Positions 20,277-26,608 of a DNA stretch of 64,000 nucleotides are shown here, piece after piece. Numbering within the stretch: position 1 is the first letter of the stretch; every line of letters starts with the position of its first letter. The notes below the pieces were generated by a model that worked only from the letters and a program-made list of their open reading frames with translations, was not told the DNA's origin and searched no databases. The stretch is taken from assembly GCF_015644725.1 (NCBI RefSeq), contig NZ_CP064795.1, positions 2,044,501 to 2,108,500 on the forward strand. Direction: 5' to 3'. The stretch is from Salinimonas marina. GTDB taxonomy: Bacteria; Pseudomonadota; Gammaproteobacteria; Enterobacterales; Alteromonadaceae. Made by a program: the position numbers and the translations under genes.

Positions 20277-22777
20277 TTATAAAGTTTCTTCAAATAACTT
20301 GTAGATGCGACGATATTCATCCAGCCACGAACTTGGTTGTACAAAACCATGGGGTTCTACCGGGTAAATCGCGGTTTCAAAATCCTGTTTTTCCAGCTCA
20401 ATCAACTTTTGCACCAAACGTACCGTGTCAGCGAAAAAGACATTGTCATCGACCATTGGCGCGTTGATCAGCAGTGGTTTTTGCAAACCATCGGCAAAGT
20501 AGATTGGCGAACTACGCCGGTAGGCAATCGGGTCGACCTCGGGAGTATTGAGGATGTTTGCCGTGTAAGGCGTATTATAATGCGCCCAGTCCGTTACCGG
20601 CCGCAGCGCCGCGCCCGCCTGAAACAGCTCGGGCTTTTTAAACATTGCCATAAAGGTTAAAAAGCCGCCGTACGAGCCGCCATAGGTACCGATTCGTTCG
20701 CGATCGACATTGGCATTATTTACCAGCCAGTTCACCCCATCGGTCAGATCCTGTACCTCAGGCTGTCCCATGTCACGGTAGATGGCTGTGCGCCAGTCAC
20801 GGCCGTAGCCAGCGGATGCCCGGTAGTCCATATCCAGAACCACATAACCTTGTTGTACCAGCATGCTGTGAAACATAAATTCACGGAAGTAGTCAGACCA
20901 GCCCAGGTGTGAATTTTGTAAATAACCCGCGCCATGGTTGAACACCACCGCTTTGCGAGGTTCACCCTGTTGATAATTTTCCGGCAAATACACCCGGGCA
21001 TAAATGGGCTGGGCGGTATGGCTGGACTCAATGGCTACAACCTGCGGCACGCTCCAGGGCTGGGTTAGAAACTCATCACTGATGGTGTCAGTGATTTTTT
21101 CTGCAGCGACAGCAGGATCCGTGGGCTTTAAATACAGCTCCGGTGGCCGGGTAACTTTGCTGTGAGTCAGCAGTAGCGACTGCTCATCCGGACTCAGGTT
21201 ATAATCGGTCATGCCGTTAAGATTGGTCATTGCCGTATTTTCACCGGTTTGCAGATTTACCCGATAAATTTCATAGACCCCGGGGTGCTTTTTATTGGCT
21301 TTGTAGTAAAGGTATTTATCATCCCTGGTCAGCGTGGGGTCATCGGTGACAAATTGCCCCTGCGTCAGGGCTTGGGCTGCCTGACCGGGCTTTTGCAGAT
21401 ACAGATGCGAATAGCCTGAACGTTCAGACTGAAAATACAATGTCTCGCTGTTGTGCAGCCAGCCAAACTGGTTATACCGGTAGTTTATCCAGGCATCATC
21501 ATGCAGCCGGGCCTGACTTTCAAGCCGGGCGTCCTGTAGATCCACGGTAGCAATCCAGCGGTCCTTGTTGTCCCAGGCTTCGAGCATAATCGCCACCGCC
21601 TGACCCTGGTTCTGCCAGCGAATCGACGGCTCACTCCAGTACCAGCTTTCCAGCAAGGTAATTTCACGAGGCAAGCGATTTACCTGATAAGACTCCCCCG
21701 GGCCCGGGCATTTTCTGTTTTTTCTTCGGCCAGAACATCTTCGTTATAACCGGGTAATGTTTTAAAAGACAGCGGTTGTTTTTGGTTTGTGGCCAGATCC
21801 ACCAGCCACAGTTCATGATTAACCGGTTCTGAGTCTGCGACCCGTTGGCGCACTTTTTTTGTATCAATACGCCCATCTTCCTGAATATAATGGGGCATAA
21901 TATCGGTGTCATCACGCCACGGCTTATCCTCGGTGGTGGCAATAATCGCCTTATCACCGGCCGGAGAAACCGACACCGCCACCAGCTTCTGGTCCGGAGC
22001 AAAATACAATGACTCAGGCGCTACGGCCTGACTGGTGGCGGCCAGTTCACGATTTTGCTGCGCCTGTTCTTCACGATGCGCGCGTTGTTTGGCCACATAA
22101 TCAATCAGCGATATCTGCTCCCGGGCCACAAAATCTTCAGGCTCTGCTACCGGTTCGGGTTTGTCGGAAAACTGCCAGCTGAGGAGCTGTTCGCGCTGGC
22201 CGGTTTGCAGATTGATGGCGATCACTTTGTTCCCCGCACGCGCCATCAGCCGCCCGTCAGTCATAAACTGTAACTGCGTCAGTTTGGACCCGCCCCGGGT
22301 GAGCTGGACCAGCTGCCCCTGACCTGACTGTACATAGACACTGTCTTTAAACCGGTACGCGGTGGTAGTGCCATCAGAGCTAACCACTTTTTCATCAAAA
22401 CGGTAACGGTGCAGATCAGCGCCATCGGCTTGCCGGGCATTATCCGGGTCGGACAGGGGCGCCACCAACACTGAATTCAAATCGCTATCGAGTTTTTCCT
22501 GCTCATAAACAATATGGCTGCCATCAAAGGAAAAGCCTGGCCGTTGGGGGGAGCGTCCCAACCATTGAGGATCTGCCATGATCTGTTTCAGGGTTAATTC
22601 GCCTGAGTCACTGACCTGAGACTCGGGCACCTGCGGTTGCATTATCGCAGCGGGGGCAGAGGTGTTATCAGAGCCTGATGCACGGGTCGCTGATGAGTCC
22701 GGAGCGGATGTCGATGAACAGGCACTCAGCGCGCTGGCAACAGCCACACTGAGCGCCATTTTGGTGAGATTTTTCAT
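20277..22777 (-). pseudogene. S9 family prolyl oligopeptidase-like lipoprotein, frameshifted in this sequence
   Basis: Dipeptidyl-peptidase/prolyl-oligopeptidase-type serine peptidase, about 830 residues when repaired. The N-terminal part has a lipobox LSAC (Cys20) and a beta-propeller; the C-terminal part carries the alpha/beta-hydrolase domain with Ser in GTYGGSYGGFLT, Asp in APMVDDNVFF and His in PVEPHGFVQP. The frame breaks in a run of five C (21695-21699). One more base joins TENARARG to ESYQVNRLPREI and restores a continuous family member. All catalytic residues are present, so this is most likely a sequencing error. The gene is alone on its strand, with an unusual leader region upstream. 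Confidence 0.88.
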
Positions 22778-22929
22778 GTGTTTGAATCTTTTTAGTTTGT
22801 TATTTTCGCTCTCATTATACGCAAGCTGGGTTGGCGGCGGTCAAGCTTCATCTCTAATGTTGTTAAAGTCATCTTACATTGTGCCTACATCCTTCTAACA
22901 CATAAGCCAGATGCTTTTCTGTTACGCAT

Positions 22930-22954
22930 AAAAAAGCCCCGCATCCGGCGGGGC
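22930..22954 (-). terminator. orphan intrinsic terminator upstream of the S9 peptidase gene
   Basis: On the minus strand GCCCCGC, a 5-base loop and GCGGGGC form a perfect 7-bp GC-rich stem followed by six T. It lies about 150 bases before the S9 start codon, so it would end a short upstream transcript or attenuate the peptidase mRNA. Confidence 0.85.
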
Positions 22955-22966
22955 AATCAAGCACAC

Positions 22967-23035
22967 TCAACTTGGAACACACATTAGCTCTAAACACTTG
23001 CCTCGCAGTGCGAGAAAGAATATTGCTAACTGCAT
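22967..23035 (-). CDS. candidate 22-residue small ORF or leader peptide
   Basis: An ATG-initiated frame of 22 codons starts MQLAIFFLAL and ends CLELMCVPS, with its stop 12 bases before the orphan terminator stem. The N-terminal half is hydrophobic and the C-terminal half contains two cysteines. No clear Shine-Dalgarno sequence precedes the ATG (upstream bases read ACTAAATCT). It may be a leader peptide, a small membrane protein, or a chance frame within a small RNA. I cannot name a family. Confidence 0.4.
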   Translation of the reverse strand: MQLAIFFLALRGKCLELMCVPS

Positions 23036-23315
23036 AGATTTAGTCAGTTACAAAACGGGGAAGTTCAACTTTTTTGCGCTTTTTAAAAATAATTTGTACT
23101 TCCGCTGCCTGCCCCGACCCACCAGGCTTGGCCGGTCAACCCGCGGCAAACCCGCAATCGCTTGTTAAAATGTCTATTTTTCATAAACCTATAATACTCA
23201 TCGCATACGATATTAGCTTGAGCGAATATCGCTCGGGTAATCCTGTACGCCGAGTAAAAAGCAGGTCATGATAACCGCTTTTGACTATCACTGTAATTGT
23301 TTGGCAGGAACCTCA

Positions 23316-25070
23316 ATGCGTAAATTTGCAATAGGACTTATTCCATTGCTGCTTCTTAGCGCCTGTGCCACGCGGGATCCGGTAATTAAAGGGCAGCCTT
23401 CAAGAGAGCTTTCTACTCCTTACACGCTAAAAAGCGGCGGCTTTGTTCCACCTCTGCAACGCGGGGTCACGGTCCGGCACGCCGAGCTATGGTTCAACTT
23501 TGATTTTGAACGTAAAGTGCTTTACGGCACCAGCGAACTTACCTTAGACAGTCAGCGTAAAAAACGCACCATTTCGGTCGATCTGGATACCCGCTTCAAA
23601 GTTGAGCAGGTATGGATTAATGATCAACCCGTGCCCTCGGGCAATGTCAAAAATCCCGATGGCCAGCTGCTTATCACCCCGCAAAATGCCGTGGTTTTTC
23701 CATTAAAATTGAAAATACAGTACTTCGGCCGGCCCCGCACACCGGTAAAAGCGCCCTGGGATGGCGGCGTTATGTGGCAACAGACCCCAACCGGTGAACC
23801 CTGGCTGGCCACGGCGGTGCAAGGCGAAGGCTGTGATTTATTCTGGCCTTGTATTGATCAGCCCACCGGCGAACCGCAACAGCTTGATTTGCACATTACC
23901 GTGCCAAAGAACCTGGTGGCAGCCAGTAACGGCGTTTTGCAAAAAGTGACGCAGCTGGAAAACGCCCACACCTTTCACTGGCATAGCGATGCGCCCACCA
24001 ACACCTATGGCGTGGCGTTGAATATTGCCCCCTATGAAACCTTGACGGCAGACTTTGACAGCCGGTTTGGTAATCGCTACCCGCTTACCTATTATTATTT
24101 ACCCGGGGTAGGTACTCAGGCCGACGCCACCGGCCAGGATGCCGACACCCAGGCCAACGCTAAGGCTTTATTTGCCGAGCTTCCACAAATGCTTGAATTT
24201 TTTGAACACTACATTGGTCCCTACCCATTTCCAAATGACAAAGTGGGCATTGTGCAGACACCTCATTTGGGCATGGAGCATCAGTCTATTAATGCCTATG
24301 GCAATGGCTATAAAAAAGACGCCTACGGCTTTGACTGGCTGTTACAGCACGAACTGGCCCATGAATGGTTTGGCAATCAGCTGACCAATACCAGCTGGGA
24401 CCATATGTGGTTACATGAAGGACTGGGCACATATATGCAACCACTTTATGCCCAGTACCTGCATGGCGATGTTGCCTATTATGGCTACCTGAACAAAATT
24501 CGAAGTCAGCTGAACAATCGCTACCCCATAGTGAGCGGCAGGGTAAAGGCCGAAGAGGAAGTCTATGACAAAGACAAAGGCCCGGGGCTGGACTTGTATT
24601 ACAAAGGCGCCTGGGTAATGCATACGCTGCGTTATCTGATTGGCGATGACGCCTTTTTTGGGGCAGTGACAGAGTTGGTCTATGGCCGCCGCGACCCGCA
24701 ACCCGGTAACTTTGCGCCGCGCTATGCCAGTACCACAGACTTTATCCGGCTGGTAAACCGCCATAGTGGCAGCGATATGAACTGGTTCTTCGATACCTAT
24801 TTATATGAAGCCTCGCTCCCGGAGCTGGTGACCCGCCGCACCGCCAGTGCGATAACGCTGGAGTGGCAGACCAGCGCTGAATCCCAGTTTGTTATGCCGC
24901 TACAAATCAGCATCAACGGGGAGCTTCAGACCCTGTCTATGACAGGCAAAACCACCCTGGCGGTAACCCGCAATGATGTGGTCATTGTTGACCCCCATAG
25001 TCGGGTGTTACGCCAGCACAGGCGCTTTGAAGAGCTGAAAGCTTACCGAGCCCGCGGCAGCCAACCGTAA
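23316..25070 (+). CDS. M1 family metallopeptidase (lipoprotein)
   Basis: Zinc aminopeptidase-like protein of 584 residues. A signal peptide with lipobox LLSAC (Cys17) follows the ATG chosen here, which has AGGAA upstream; the longer frame starting 16 codons earlier would destroy the signal peptide. The zinc site is HELAHEWFGNQ with the third ligand in LHEGLGTY. The exopeptidase motif reads GMEHQS instead of the classical GAMEN. The usual Tyr lies in the DLYYKGAWVMHTLR region. It is divergent from the S9 peptidase, so both may serve extracytoplasmic peptide breakdown. Confidence 0.9.
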   Translation: MRKFAIGLIPLLLLSACATRDPVIKGQPSRELSTPYTLKSGGFVPPLQRGVTVRHAELWFNFDFERKVLYGTSELTLDSQRKKRTISVDLDTRFKVEQVWINDQPVPSGNVKNPDGQLLITPQNAVVFPLKLKIQYFGRPRTPVKAPWDGGVMWQQTPTGEPWLATAVQGEGCDLFWPCIDQPTGEPQQLDLHITVPKNLVAASNGVLQKVTQLENAHTFHWHSDAPTNTYGVALNIAPYETLTADFDSRFGNRYPLTYYYLPGVGTQADATGQDADTQANAKALFAELPQMLEFFEHYIGPYPFPNDKVGIVQTPHLGMEHQSINAYGNGYKKDAYGFDWLLQHELAHEWFGNQLTNTSWDHMWLHEGLGTYMQPLYAQYLHGDVAYYGYLNKIRSQLNNRYPIVSGRVKAEEEVYDKDKGPGLDLYYKGAWVMHTLRYLIGDDAFFGAVTELVYGRRDPQPGNFAPRYASTTDFIRLVNRHSGSDMNWFFDTYLYEASLPELVTRRTASAITLEWQTSAESQFVMPLQISINGELQTLSMTGKTTLAVTRNDVVIVDPHSRVLRQHRRFEELKAYRARGSQP

Positions 25071-25147: not shown

Positions 25148-26388
25148 CTAAAAACAGTCAAGCGCTTGGGCAAAGTCGGCAATCAGATCTTCGGTGTCTT
25201 CAATGCCCACGGAGATCCGCAGCATGGTTTCGCTGATGCCCATCTCGGCGCGCTCGTCGGCACTGTTTTCATAAAAGATGGTCTGGGCCACGGGCAACGC
25301 CAGGGTCCGGGTGTCGCCCAGGTGGGTGGCGCAGATAGCCAATTCCAGCTTGTTCAGAAAGGCTACGGGATCGATATGCCGGGCTAAATCAAGACTCAGG
25401 ATCGCGCCATAGCCGGTCAGCATTTGTTCACGGGCCGTAAAGTGTTGGGGATGGTCGGCCAGCCCCGGATAATAAACCCGGCTGACTTTGTCGTGATTGT
25501 CTAAAAACAGTGCCAGTTCTTTGGCATTGTTGCAGGCCCGCTCCATTCTTAAGGCCAGCGTTTCGATACCCACCGCGATTTTGTGCGCCGCCTCACTGGA
25601 TAAGGTGGCGCCCATATCCCGCAAGCCCTTTTTCTTGATCTGGGTTAAGCCACGCTGGGAGGCATCTGCCACCTGATACGCCGGCAGAATATTCGCAAAC
25701 CCGGTCCAGTCGAACAAACCGGTATCCACCACCGCGCCGCCTAAAGCATGCCCGTGCCCCGCCACATACTTGGTCAAAGAGCACACCACCAGACTCGCCC
25801 CCAAAGCTTTGGCATCCACCAGTGGGGTGGCGTCATGGTGTTATCCACAATCAGCAAAATTGTACGTTCCTGGCAATATTTGCCGATGGCCTGAATGTCG
25901 GCCACCTGAGTGGCCGGATTGGCCACGGTTTCGGTGAAAACCGCACGGGTGTTGGGCTGATACGCCTCGGTAATGGCTTCCAGCTCGGTCACATCTACAA
26001 AGCTTATCTGAATCCCCAGATCAGCCAGGGTATTCATCAGACTGCGTGAGTTTCCAAACAGGTAACGGCTGACAATAATATGGTCACCCTGGCGAAACAG
26101 CGATAAAAAAGTACCACTGATGGCGGCCATTCCCGTGGCGAAACACACGGCCCCTACCCCTTGCTCAAGCTGGTTTATCTGGTTTGCCAGCGCCTGCATC
26201 GACCCGGTAGAAGAGCGCCCATATACATGGCCCGCCTGCTTGCCCTGAAAGACATCAATAATATCCTGGGCATCCTGGTATTCGAATAATACCGAAGAGG
26301 TCGCCGCGGTATGGACCGCGCCATCGGCCGGTTGATTTAAACGGCGGTCACCGTGAATCTGGCGGGTAGTAAAGCCCTGCTTGCTCAA
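25148..26388 (-). pseudogene. trans-sulfuration (Cys/Met metabolism) PLP enzyme, frameshifted in this sequence
   Basis: Cystathionine gamma-synthase/lyase or methionine gamma-lyase family protein, about 413 residues when repaired. Visible: YGRSSTGSMQALANQINQLE, the PLP-binding ATGMAAIS, VDNTMTPP, and the Schiff-base lysine in SLTKYVAGHGHALGG; the C-terminal domain ends with LRISVGIEDTEDLIADF. The frame breaks at a run of four G (25824-25827); adding one base gives PPPLVDAKALG. The start is probably the TTG before SKQGFTTRQIHGD, which has GGGAG seven bases upstream. The exact reaction cannot be decided from sequence. Confidence 0.85.
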
Positions 26389-26608
26389 GAGTTGCTCCCA
26401 GTAAATGCGCAATAATAATTAGGCTCACGTTAGCATAAATTCCCGGAATTGTGCGCAGGTGGTATTAATTTTCAGCTTTTCGACTATGCTTTGGATTAAG
26501 GGTAGATCAAAAGTGTGAGGCAATAACATTCAGTTTCAGGTTGATCCGGATTAAAAACACTTGCCTATAAGGATCACGCACTAGGCTAAAGGAGAAGTAT
26601 CTGCCGTT

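Follow-up and report, generated by a model that had tools for sequence, protein, structure and literature searches.

VrrA from Vibrio cholerae is described in PMC2628432 as a small RNA (sRNA) of 140 nt with a sigma-E promoter that is conserved in relatives, and as one that pairs at the translation start of ompA and represses it. MicA and RybB of the enterobacteria, as presented in PMC1804206, are likewise sigma-E-dependent, have -35 boxes resembling GGAACTT, and are linked to the decay of omp mRNAs, with GGAACTTTT and GTCAAA given there as the sigma-E boxes. For MicL of E. coli, PMC9438474 reports sigma-E dependence, a promoter inside an upstream coding gene, processing from a precursor of about 300 nt, and repression of Lpp. 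Set beside these, the locus described here shares with VrrA a comparable size and a conserved sigma-E-type promoter upstream, although VrrA is proven by experiment, and pairing with and repression of ompA are only predicted in our case. With MicA and RybB it has in common a predicted sigma-E-type -35 element, but its -10 element reads ACTAA rather than GTCAAA. The pairing region of MicA and RybB lies at the 5' end, unlike the presumed one of the present sRNA. As for MicL, the likeness is in the placement of the promoter, since every one of the 48 loci in which an upstream same-strand azoR-like ORF accompanies the strict promoter has the -35 inside that ORF. MicL nonetheless differs in its long precursor (about 300 nt) and its Lpp target, and the locus presented here lacks the azoR-like gene and has an intergenic promoter. 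From the same bacterial group as our sRNA, Aln1a-c of Alteromonas macleodii are CsrA-sequestering RNAs, reported in a study that gives 127 chromosomal sRNAs (PMC5864184). Ours may be among these 127, unnamed; a literature search found no paper that describes it, the sRNA list of that A. macleodii study lying outside what was compared.

The window analysed is a stretch of 64,000 nucleotides from Salinimonas marina (NZ_CP064795.1, positions 2,044,501 to 2,108,500), to which coordinates refer unless stated otherwise. Its minus strand carries at 23035-22930 a conserved sRNA gene of about 105 nt, the existence of which we regard as close to certain, with a 5' end that promoter spacing predicts near 23035-23032 and a predicted 3' terminus within the U run (22930). 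The preliminary description of this gap had drawn attention to a 22-codon frame followed by a terminator, and both are there as it said: the frame runs from ATG to TGA on the minus strand (23035-22967; MQLAIFFLALRGKCLELMCVPS), and 12 bases past its stop codon lies the stem-loop GCCCCGC-CGGAT-GCGGGGC (22954-22936) with six T at 22935-22930, about 150 bases ahead of the S9 peptidase start (22777). Identified by the terminator scan, this Rho-independent terminator has a covarying helix, and its U6 tract is present in all 27 rows of the genus alignment A1, the rows of which were trimmed to end at the tract. Upstream of it, a 5' hairpin (22978-23036) has a base of AUGCA/UGUGU plus UUAGC/GCUAA and a variable apical hairpin, as judged from the folds of 27 sequences. 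Between the two lies the strongly conserved core GUGUGUUCCAAGUUGAGUGUG (22962-22982), which we presume to be the target-pairing region; it is invariant in the 27 rows of A1, which were themselves selected by an exact core match. Its conserved form in the RNA is GUGUGUUCC[A/U]AGUUGAGUGUG, which is G/U-rich. Along the aligned loci, GAACT is followed after 17 bases by what is mostly [A/C]CTAA and, a few bases on, by TGCAGTTAGC; a variable stretch then leads to GCTAAAGTGTGTTCCAAGTTGAGTGTG, from which a short spacer separates the terminator with its T run. In terms of pattern alone, the site is within chance, as the 2-kb region has three terminator-like sites where shuffled sequence gives 2.3 +/- 1.6, and 22-codon frames are common. 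It exceeds chance because the segment is conserved across relatives. The window has no tRNA or tmRNA.

Searches of the window and of 16 relatives gave no Rfam family at its gathering score, which agrees with the preliminary description, where no known attenuator or sRNA family had been recognised. Matches to anti-hemB, GcvB, and RyhB (E-values of 0.12, 0.21, and 2.2) include the terminator hairpin and were rejected as far below the gathering scores. VrrA, MicA, RybB, and MicL are absent from the eight Rfam families matched at E <= 10, an absence that is informative only for those that Rfam holds. Apparently the sRNA forms an undescribed family of a known kind, probably that of the sigma-E-dependent, omp-regulating sRNAs.

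With 22925-23090 as the blastn query, the segment was matched in 33 of the 35 other genomes of the genus; outside the family, only one of 24 genomes from other families gave a match, which was confined to 28 bases at the end that holds the terminator. A genome missed by blastn (G016) holds a diverged copy at lax thresholds, and another (G033, 87% complete) has no convincing copy even at these. Within its own genome the segment has a single match, for which reason a repeat element was rejected. The sRNA was also detected by a covariance model, trained on 71 matches, in 89 of the 395 genomes of the family (18 of its 52 genera), once in each, some of the genomes searched having themselves supplied training sequences. 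An earlier model, applied to 394 genomes of the order, had given matches in 15, each of them a member of the same family. Moreover, in a set of one genome per species (84,980 species), the exact 18-base core pattern occurs in 55 stretches, of which 53 are titled Alteromonas, Salinimonas, Aestuariibacter, Marisediminitalea, Planctobacterium, or 'Alteromonadaceae bacterium', the five genera being ones that we take to belong to the Alteromonadaceae. The remaining stretches are from one unclassified gammaproteobacterial MAG and one Verrucomicrobia MAG (L101), and the latter was dropped as a chance match in which the promoter and terminator were not seen. Altogether, the 92 true loci, which include duplicates of some species, correspond to 70 distinct segments. 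The locus of one match (L046) is cut by a contig end. The sequence GTGTGTTCC[A/T]A is retained in most loci of other genera.

In minimum-energy folds, all 27 A1 sequences form the terminator hairpin, and 25 of them also form the 5' hairpin with about the same base, while L016 and L021 take another pairing. Double changes are found at all five pairs of the helix UUAGC/GCUAA and at five of the seven pairs of the terminator helix, where 100% of cells are paired. Of the 22 pairs in the wider alignment, 12 show double changes (47 such cells), a level that none of 500 shuffles attained and that compares with at most five pairs and 13 cells in a slid-partner control; the result leans in favour of the structure because this alignment was fitted to the model. 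Within A1, by contrast, the core pairs are almost invariant and show no covariation. The variable stretch is mostly hairpin, its apical part having z values from +0.5 to -5.2, with a mean of -2.5, in 22 distinct sequences. Outside the genus, a small CAAGU...GCUUG hairpin is weaker and the linear core is better kept.

Directly upstream of the sRNA we found a predicted sigma-E-type promoter that is conserved in relatives, with GAACT as the -35 element (minus strand, 23062-23066) and, 17 nt from it, ACTAA as the -10 element (23040-23044). GAAC-N18-xCTAA is present in 62 of the 70 distinct loci (84 of 93 before duplicates and one chance match were removed), and the other eight have looser GAACT boxes by eye, with TCTGA, TCTAT at 18-nt spacing, TCTTA, ACAAA, and ACCAA as -10 sequences. 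The promoter lies outside the covariance model, and among 31 loci new to the analysis 14 have a strict and 12 a loose promoter, as compared with chance rates per 190 nt in an own-genome sample of 0.1% and 5%, respectively; five have neither, two of which (L350 and L357) show a box by eye. In the genus, GAACT-N17-TCTA[C/T] precedes rpoE in 30 of 30 genomes and GAACT-N17-xCTAA precedes rseA in 28 of 30, with one of the other two having 16 nt. Here, RseA was named from Pfam, and the sigma factor was named RpoE mainly because the promoters of rpoE and rseA have the same -35 element and spacing. The pattern GAACT-N17-xCTAA is rare, with three matches in 1.6 Mb on both strands, one of which is situated between rpoE and rseA (L151 near 11047; about 1140598 in the S. 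marina genome) and suggests separate transcription of the anti-sigma factor. The two others of this own-genome sample are near 5108 in L157 and near 387 in L171. As for a sigma-70 promoter, none is listed just upstream of the sRNA, the nearest same-strand one upstream being at 23297-23268. A counterpoint to sigma-E is that the -10 element in the genus is mostly ACTAA, unlike the enterobacterial GTCAAA. Judged from these sequences, control of the sRNA by sigma-E is likely.

The best predicted target is ompA, and within the genus its repression by the sRNA seems probable to us, if less so than the sigma-E control. In a scan of 660 genes, drawn from 21% of the genome and with heuristic gene starts, ompA is the only gene with a leader that complements the 22-nt core perfectly over 10 nt (CACTCAACTT at -26, just ahead of the ribosome-binding site), so that at least 10 nt were reached by one of 660 sampled genes. 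Perfect complements of at least 8 nt occur in 30 of 35 ompA leaders of the genus, as against none of 30 rpoE leaders and six of the 660 sampled genes. ACTCAAC is present in all 29 readable ompA leaders of the 30 that were fetched, and the count of 35 was arrived at when five more were added and L247 was re-read. Shuffled cores reached the 8-nt ompA count in 1 of 2000 cases when mononucleotides were shuffled and in 60 of 2000 when dinucleotides were; of the 2000 dinucleotide shuffles, 215 reached the 9-nt count. When a wider 29-nt region was scanned over the 660 genes, ompA came second, with the best helix scores being no higher than those of shuffled seeds; its rank is not an independent test because ompA was picked from that same scan. 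Duplexes of the sRNA with the ompA leader are only modestly more favourable in energy than those with shuffled leaders (z averages -1.2, and 7 of 41 genomes have p <= 0.05), and unconstrained duplex energies over the 660 genes gave no clear outlier. A search for the 16-mer complement with up to three mismatches gave 13 places, one of them the sRNA gene itself, versus 18 for a reversed control pattern, and none of these resembles the leader of an outer-membrane protein gene. Separately, a gene for a small outer-membrane-like protein in the same genome (L164 near 7872) has CACACTCA, an 8-nt complement to the core, at about -46.

Among the five ompA leaders of the genus that lack the site of at least 8 nt, those of G016 and G023 have 7 nt and that of G002 has 6 nt of perfect complement to the other half of the core, and these are longer by eye when G-U pairs are counted (duplex p of 0.33, 0.03, and 0.003, respectively). 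Because the three leaders match the GUGUGU half and not GUUGAGUG, the target site may have switched between core halves. Moreover, the core of two diverged copies (L288 in G016 and L361 in G747) carries AACGUUGAGUG, the exact 11-nt complement of CACTCAACGTT, which occurs in many other ompA leaders of the genus and is absent from that of G016 itself. In the sRNA-bearing genera outside the genus, we found no clear common ompA site, the chosen ompA start for one member of that leader set (L260) being doubtful. Nor do the ompA leaders of g29, g33, and g37 genomes show clear changes matching those in the core, so that ompA pairing did not come through the strongest test that sequence offers. The co-occurrence of target sites and sRNA is not independent evidence either, because both are shared by descent.

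Three readings had been offered in the preliminary description, namely a translated leader that controls read-through into the peptidase gene, a free small RNA, and a small hydrophobic protein, and it is the free RNA that the comparison with relatives supports. That the 22-codon frame, with its hydrophobic start, is the gene of a small protein has next to no probability in our estimation, as frames across 30 genus loci range from 1 to 40 codons with unrelated ends, begin with GTG, TTG, or CTG in five, and vary in a way that tracks the RNA pairing. We therefore judge the frame (minus strand, 22967-23035) not to be a gene; in relatives, the RNA segment and terminator hairpin are kept, and the peptide, its length, and its start codon are not. 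These data bear equally on the frame as translated sensor in a leader or attenuator that would act in cis on the S9 peptidase gene, given that no conserved leader peptide precedes the terminator in the 30 loci, and that there is no room for a ribosome-binding site because the ATG sits at the transcription start predicted from promoter spacing. The conserved neighbour in question (PF00326, PF00930; minus strand, 20277-22777) is found downstream on the same strand, as an S9-cluster gene, in 77 of 92 loci, and in 18 of these, the window included, it is at most 700 nt away with no glutathione-peroxidase-like (GPx-like) gene between. However, the gene next after the sRNA in 71 of 92 loci is an opposite-strand GPx-like gene, which disfavours an S9 leader, and it intervenes in all 59 of the loci where the S9 gene is more than 700 nt away. 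Read-through control of the peptidase is thus unlikely, and the leader reading as a whole, judged on minimum-energy folds as far as structure goes, is highly improbable. On the other side, the azoR-like gene (Flavodoxin_2, PF02525) lies upstream in 55 of 92 loci; the window keeps the S9 gene and the Cys/Met lyase of this neighbourhood, and has a divergent M1-family peptidase (PF01433 profile match; plus strand, 23316-25070) in the usual place of the azoR-like gene. The M1 start is most likely at 23316, going by a lipoprotein-like signal, and its frame is open. The S9 frame is broken at 21674-21680 on the minus strand into 365 + 465 aa in different frames, compared with a single frame of 829-852 aa in five of six named relatives, the sixth locus ending too soon. 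The gene of the Cys/Met-metabolism PLP enzyme (25148-26412, minus strand) likewise consists of two overlapping frames (223 + 212 aa), and these two broken genes near each other may reflect assembly errors or decay.

If the RNA itself is accepted, both its sigma factor and its targets might be other than we propose. An RNA of the same anatomy could be transcribed by another ECF sigma factor instead of RpoE, seeing that TIGR02939 has six matches in the S. marina genome, one above the cut-off among the matches listed, and that the -10 of the sRNA is ACTAA against TCTAC in the rpoE promoter. Yet the rseA promoter shares the xCTAA form of the -10 in 28 of 30 genomes, and TCTGA or TCTAT occurs at some of the sRNA loci, leaving this reading very unlikely. 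Less remote, if still improbable, is a trans-acting sRNA under sigma-E for which ompA is not the main target, and in which the most deeply conserved half, GUGUGUUCC, would serve other envelope mRNAs, for example those of TonB receptors. In keeping with it, three g117 loci and two of the three g38 loci have lost the GUUGAGUG half but preserve GTGTGTTCC[A/T]A, and ACTCAAC is found outside the genus in only one of 27 ompA-type leaders, far upstream of the start. Within the genus, however, the ompA site keeps its position even though the sequence upstream of it drifts. GAACACAC was seen at -8 in one of 18 TonB-receptor leaders scored (28 loci given, ten without a callable start), which is weak beside the background of six in 660 genes.

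The reading we favour, and consider likely, is that of a small trans-acting RNA under sigma-E that is probably induced when the envelope is under stress, acts in the manner of MicA and VrrA, and has ompA as its predicted target. By sequence alone, promoter, hairpin, core, and terminator exist and are conserved, and complementarity to the ompA leader is kept within the genus; from these we infer transcription of the sRNA, its drive by sigma-E, binding by Hfq (the gene of which is present in the genome), and repression of ompA. Transcription of the RNA would stop at the terminator singled out in the preliminary description, and the product would fold into the 5' hairpin and terminator and display the G/U-rich core. 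The core would then pair, probably with Hfq, with mRNAs of outer-membrane proteins at a site directly ahead of the ribosome-binding site, and at ompA this pairing would block translation and lower OmpA. More tentatively, and taken jointly, the sRNA could be the principal non-coding branch of the sigma-E response throughout the Alteromonadaceae, with a promoter that in most loci is seated within the 3' end of a gene for a redox enzyme, and a two-seed sRNA without common descent with MicA, RybB, or VrrA that has converged on ompA and switched its target site between core halves by lineage. The "orphan terminator between divergent genes" would find its explanation as the end of an sRNA gene, and the promoter motif that the sRNA has in common with rpoE and rseA would offer a handle for finding the remaining regulon. 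A major group of marine copiotrophs would thereby have a separate family of the sigma-E-dependent, omp-silencing type known from enterobacteria and vibrios, and with it a clean comparison of unrelated sRNAs converging on ompA.
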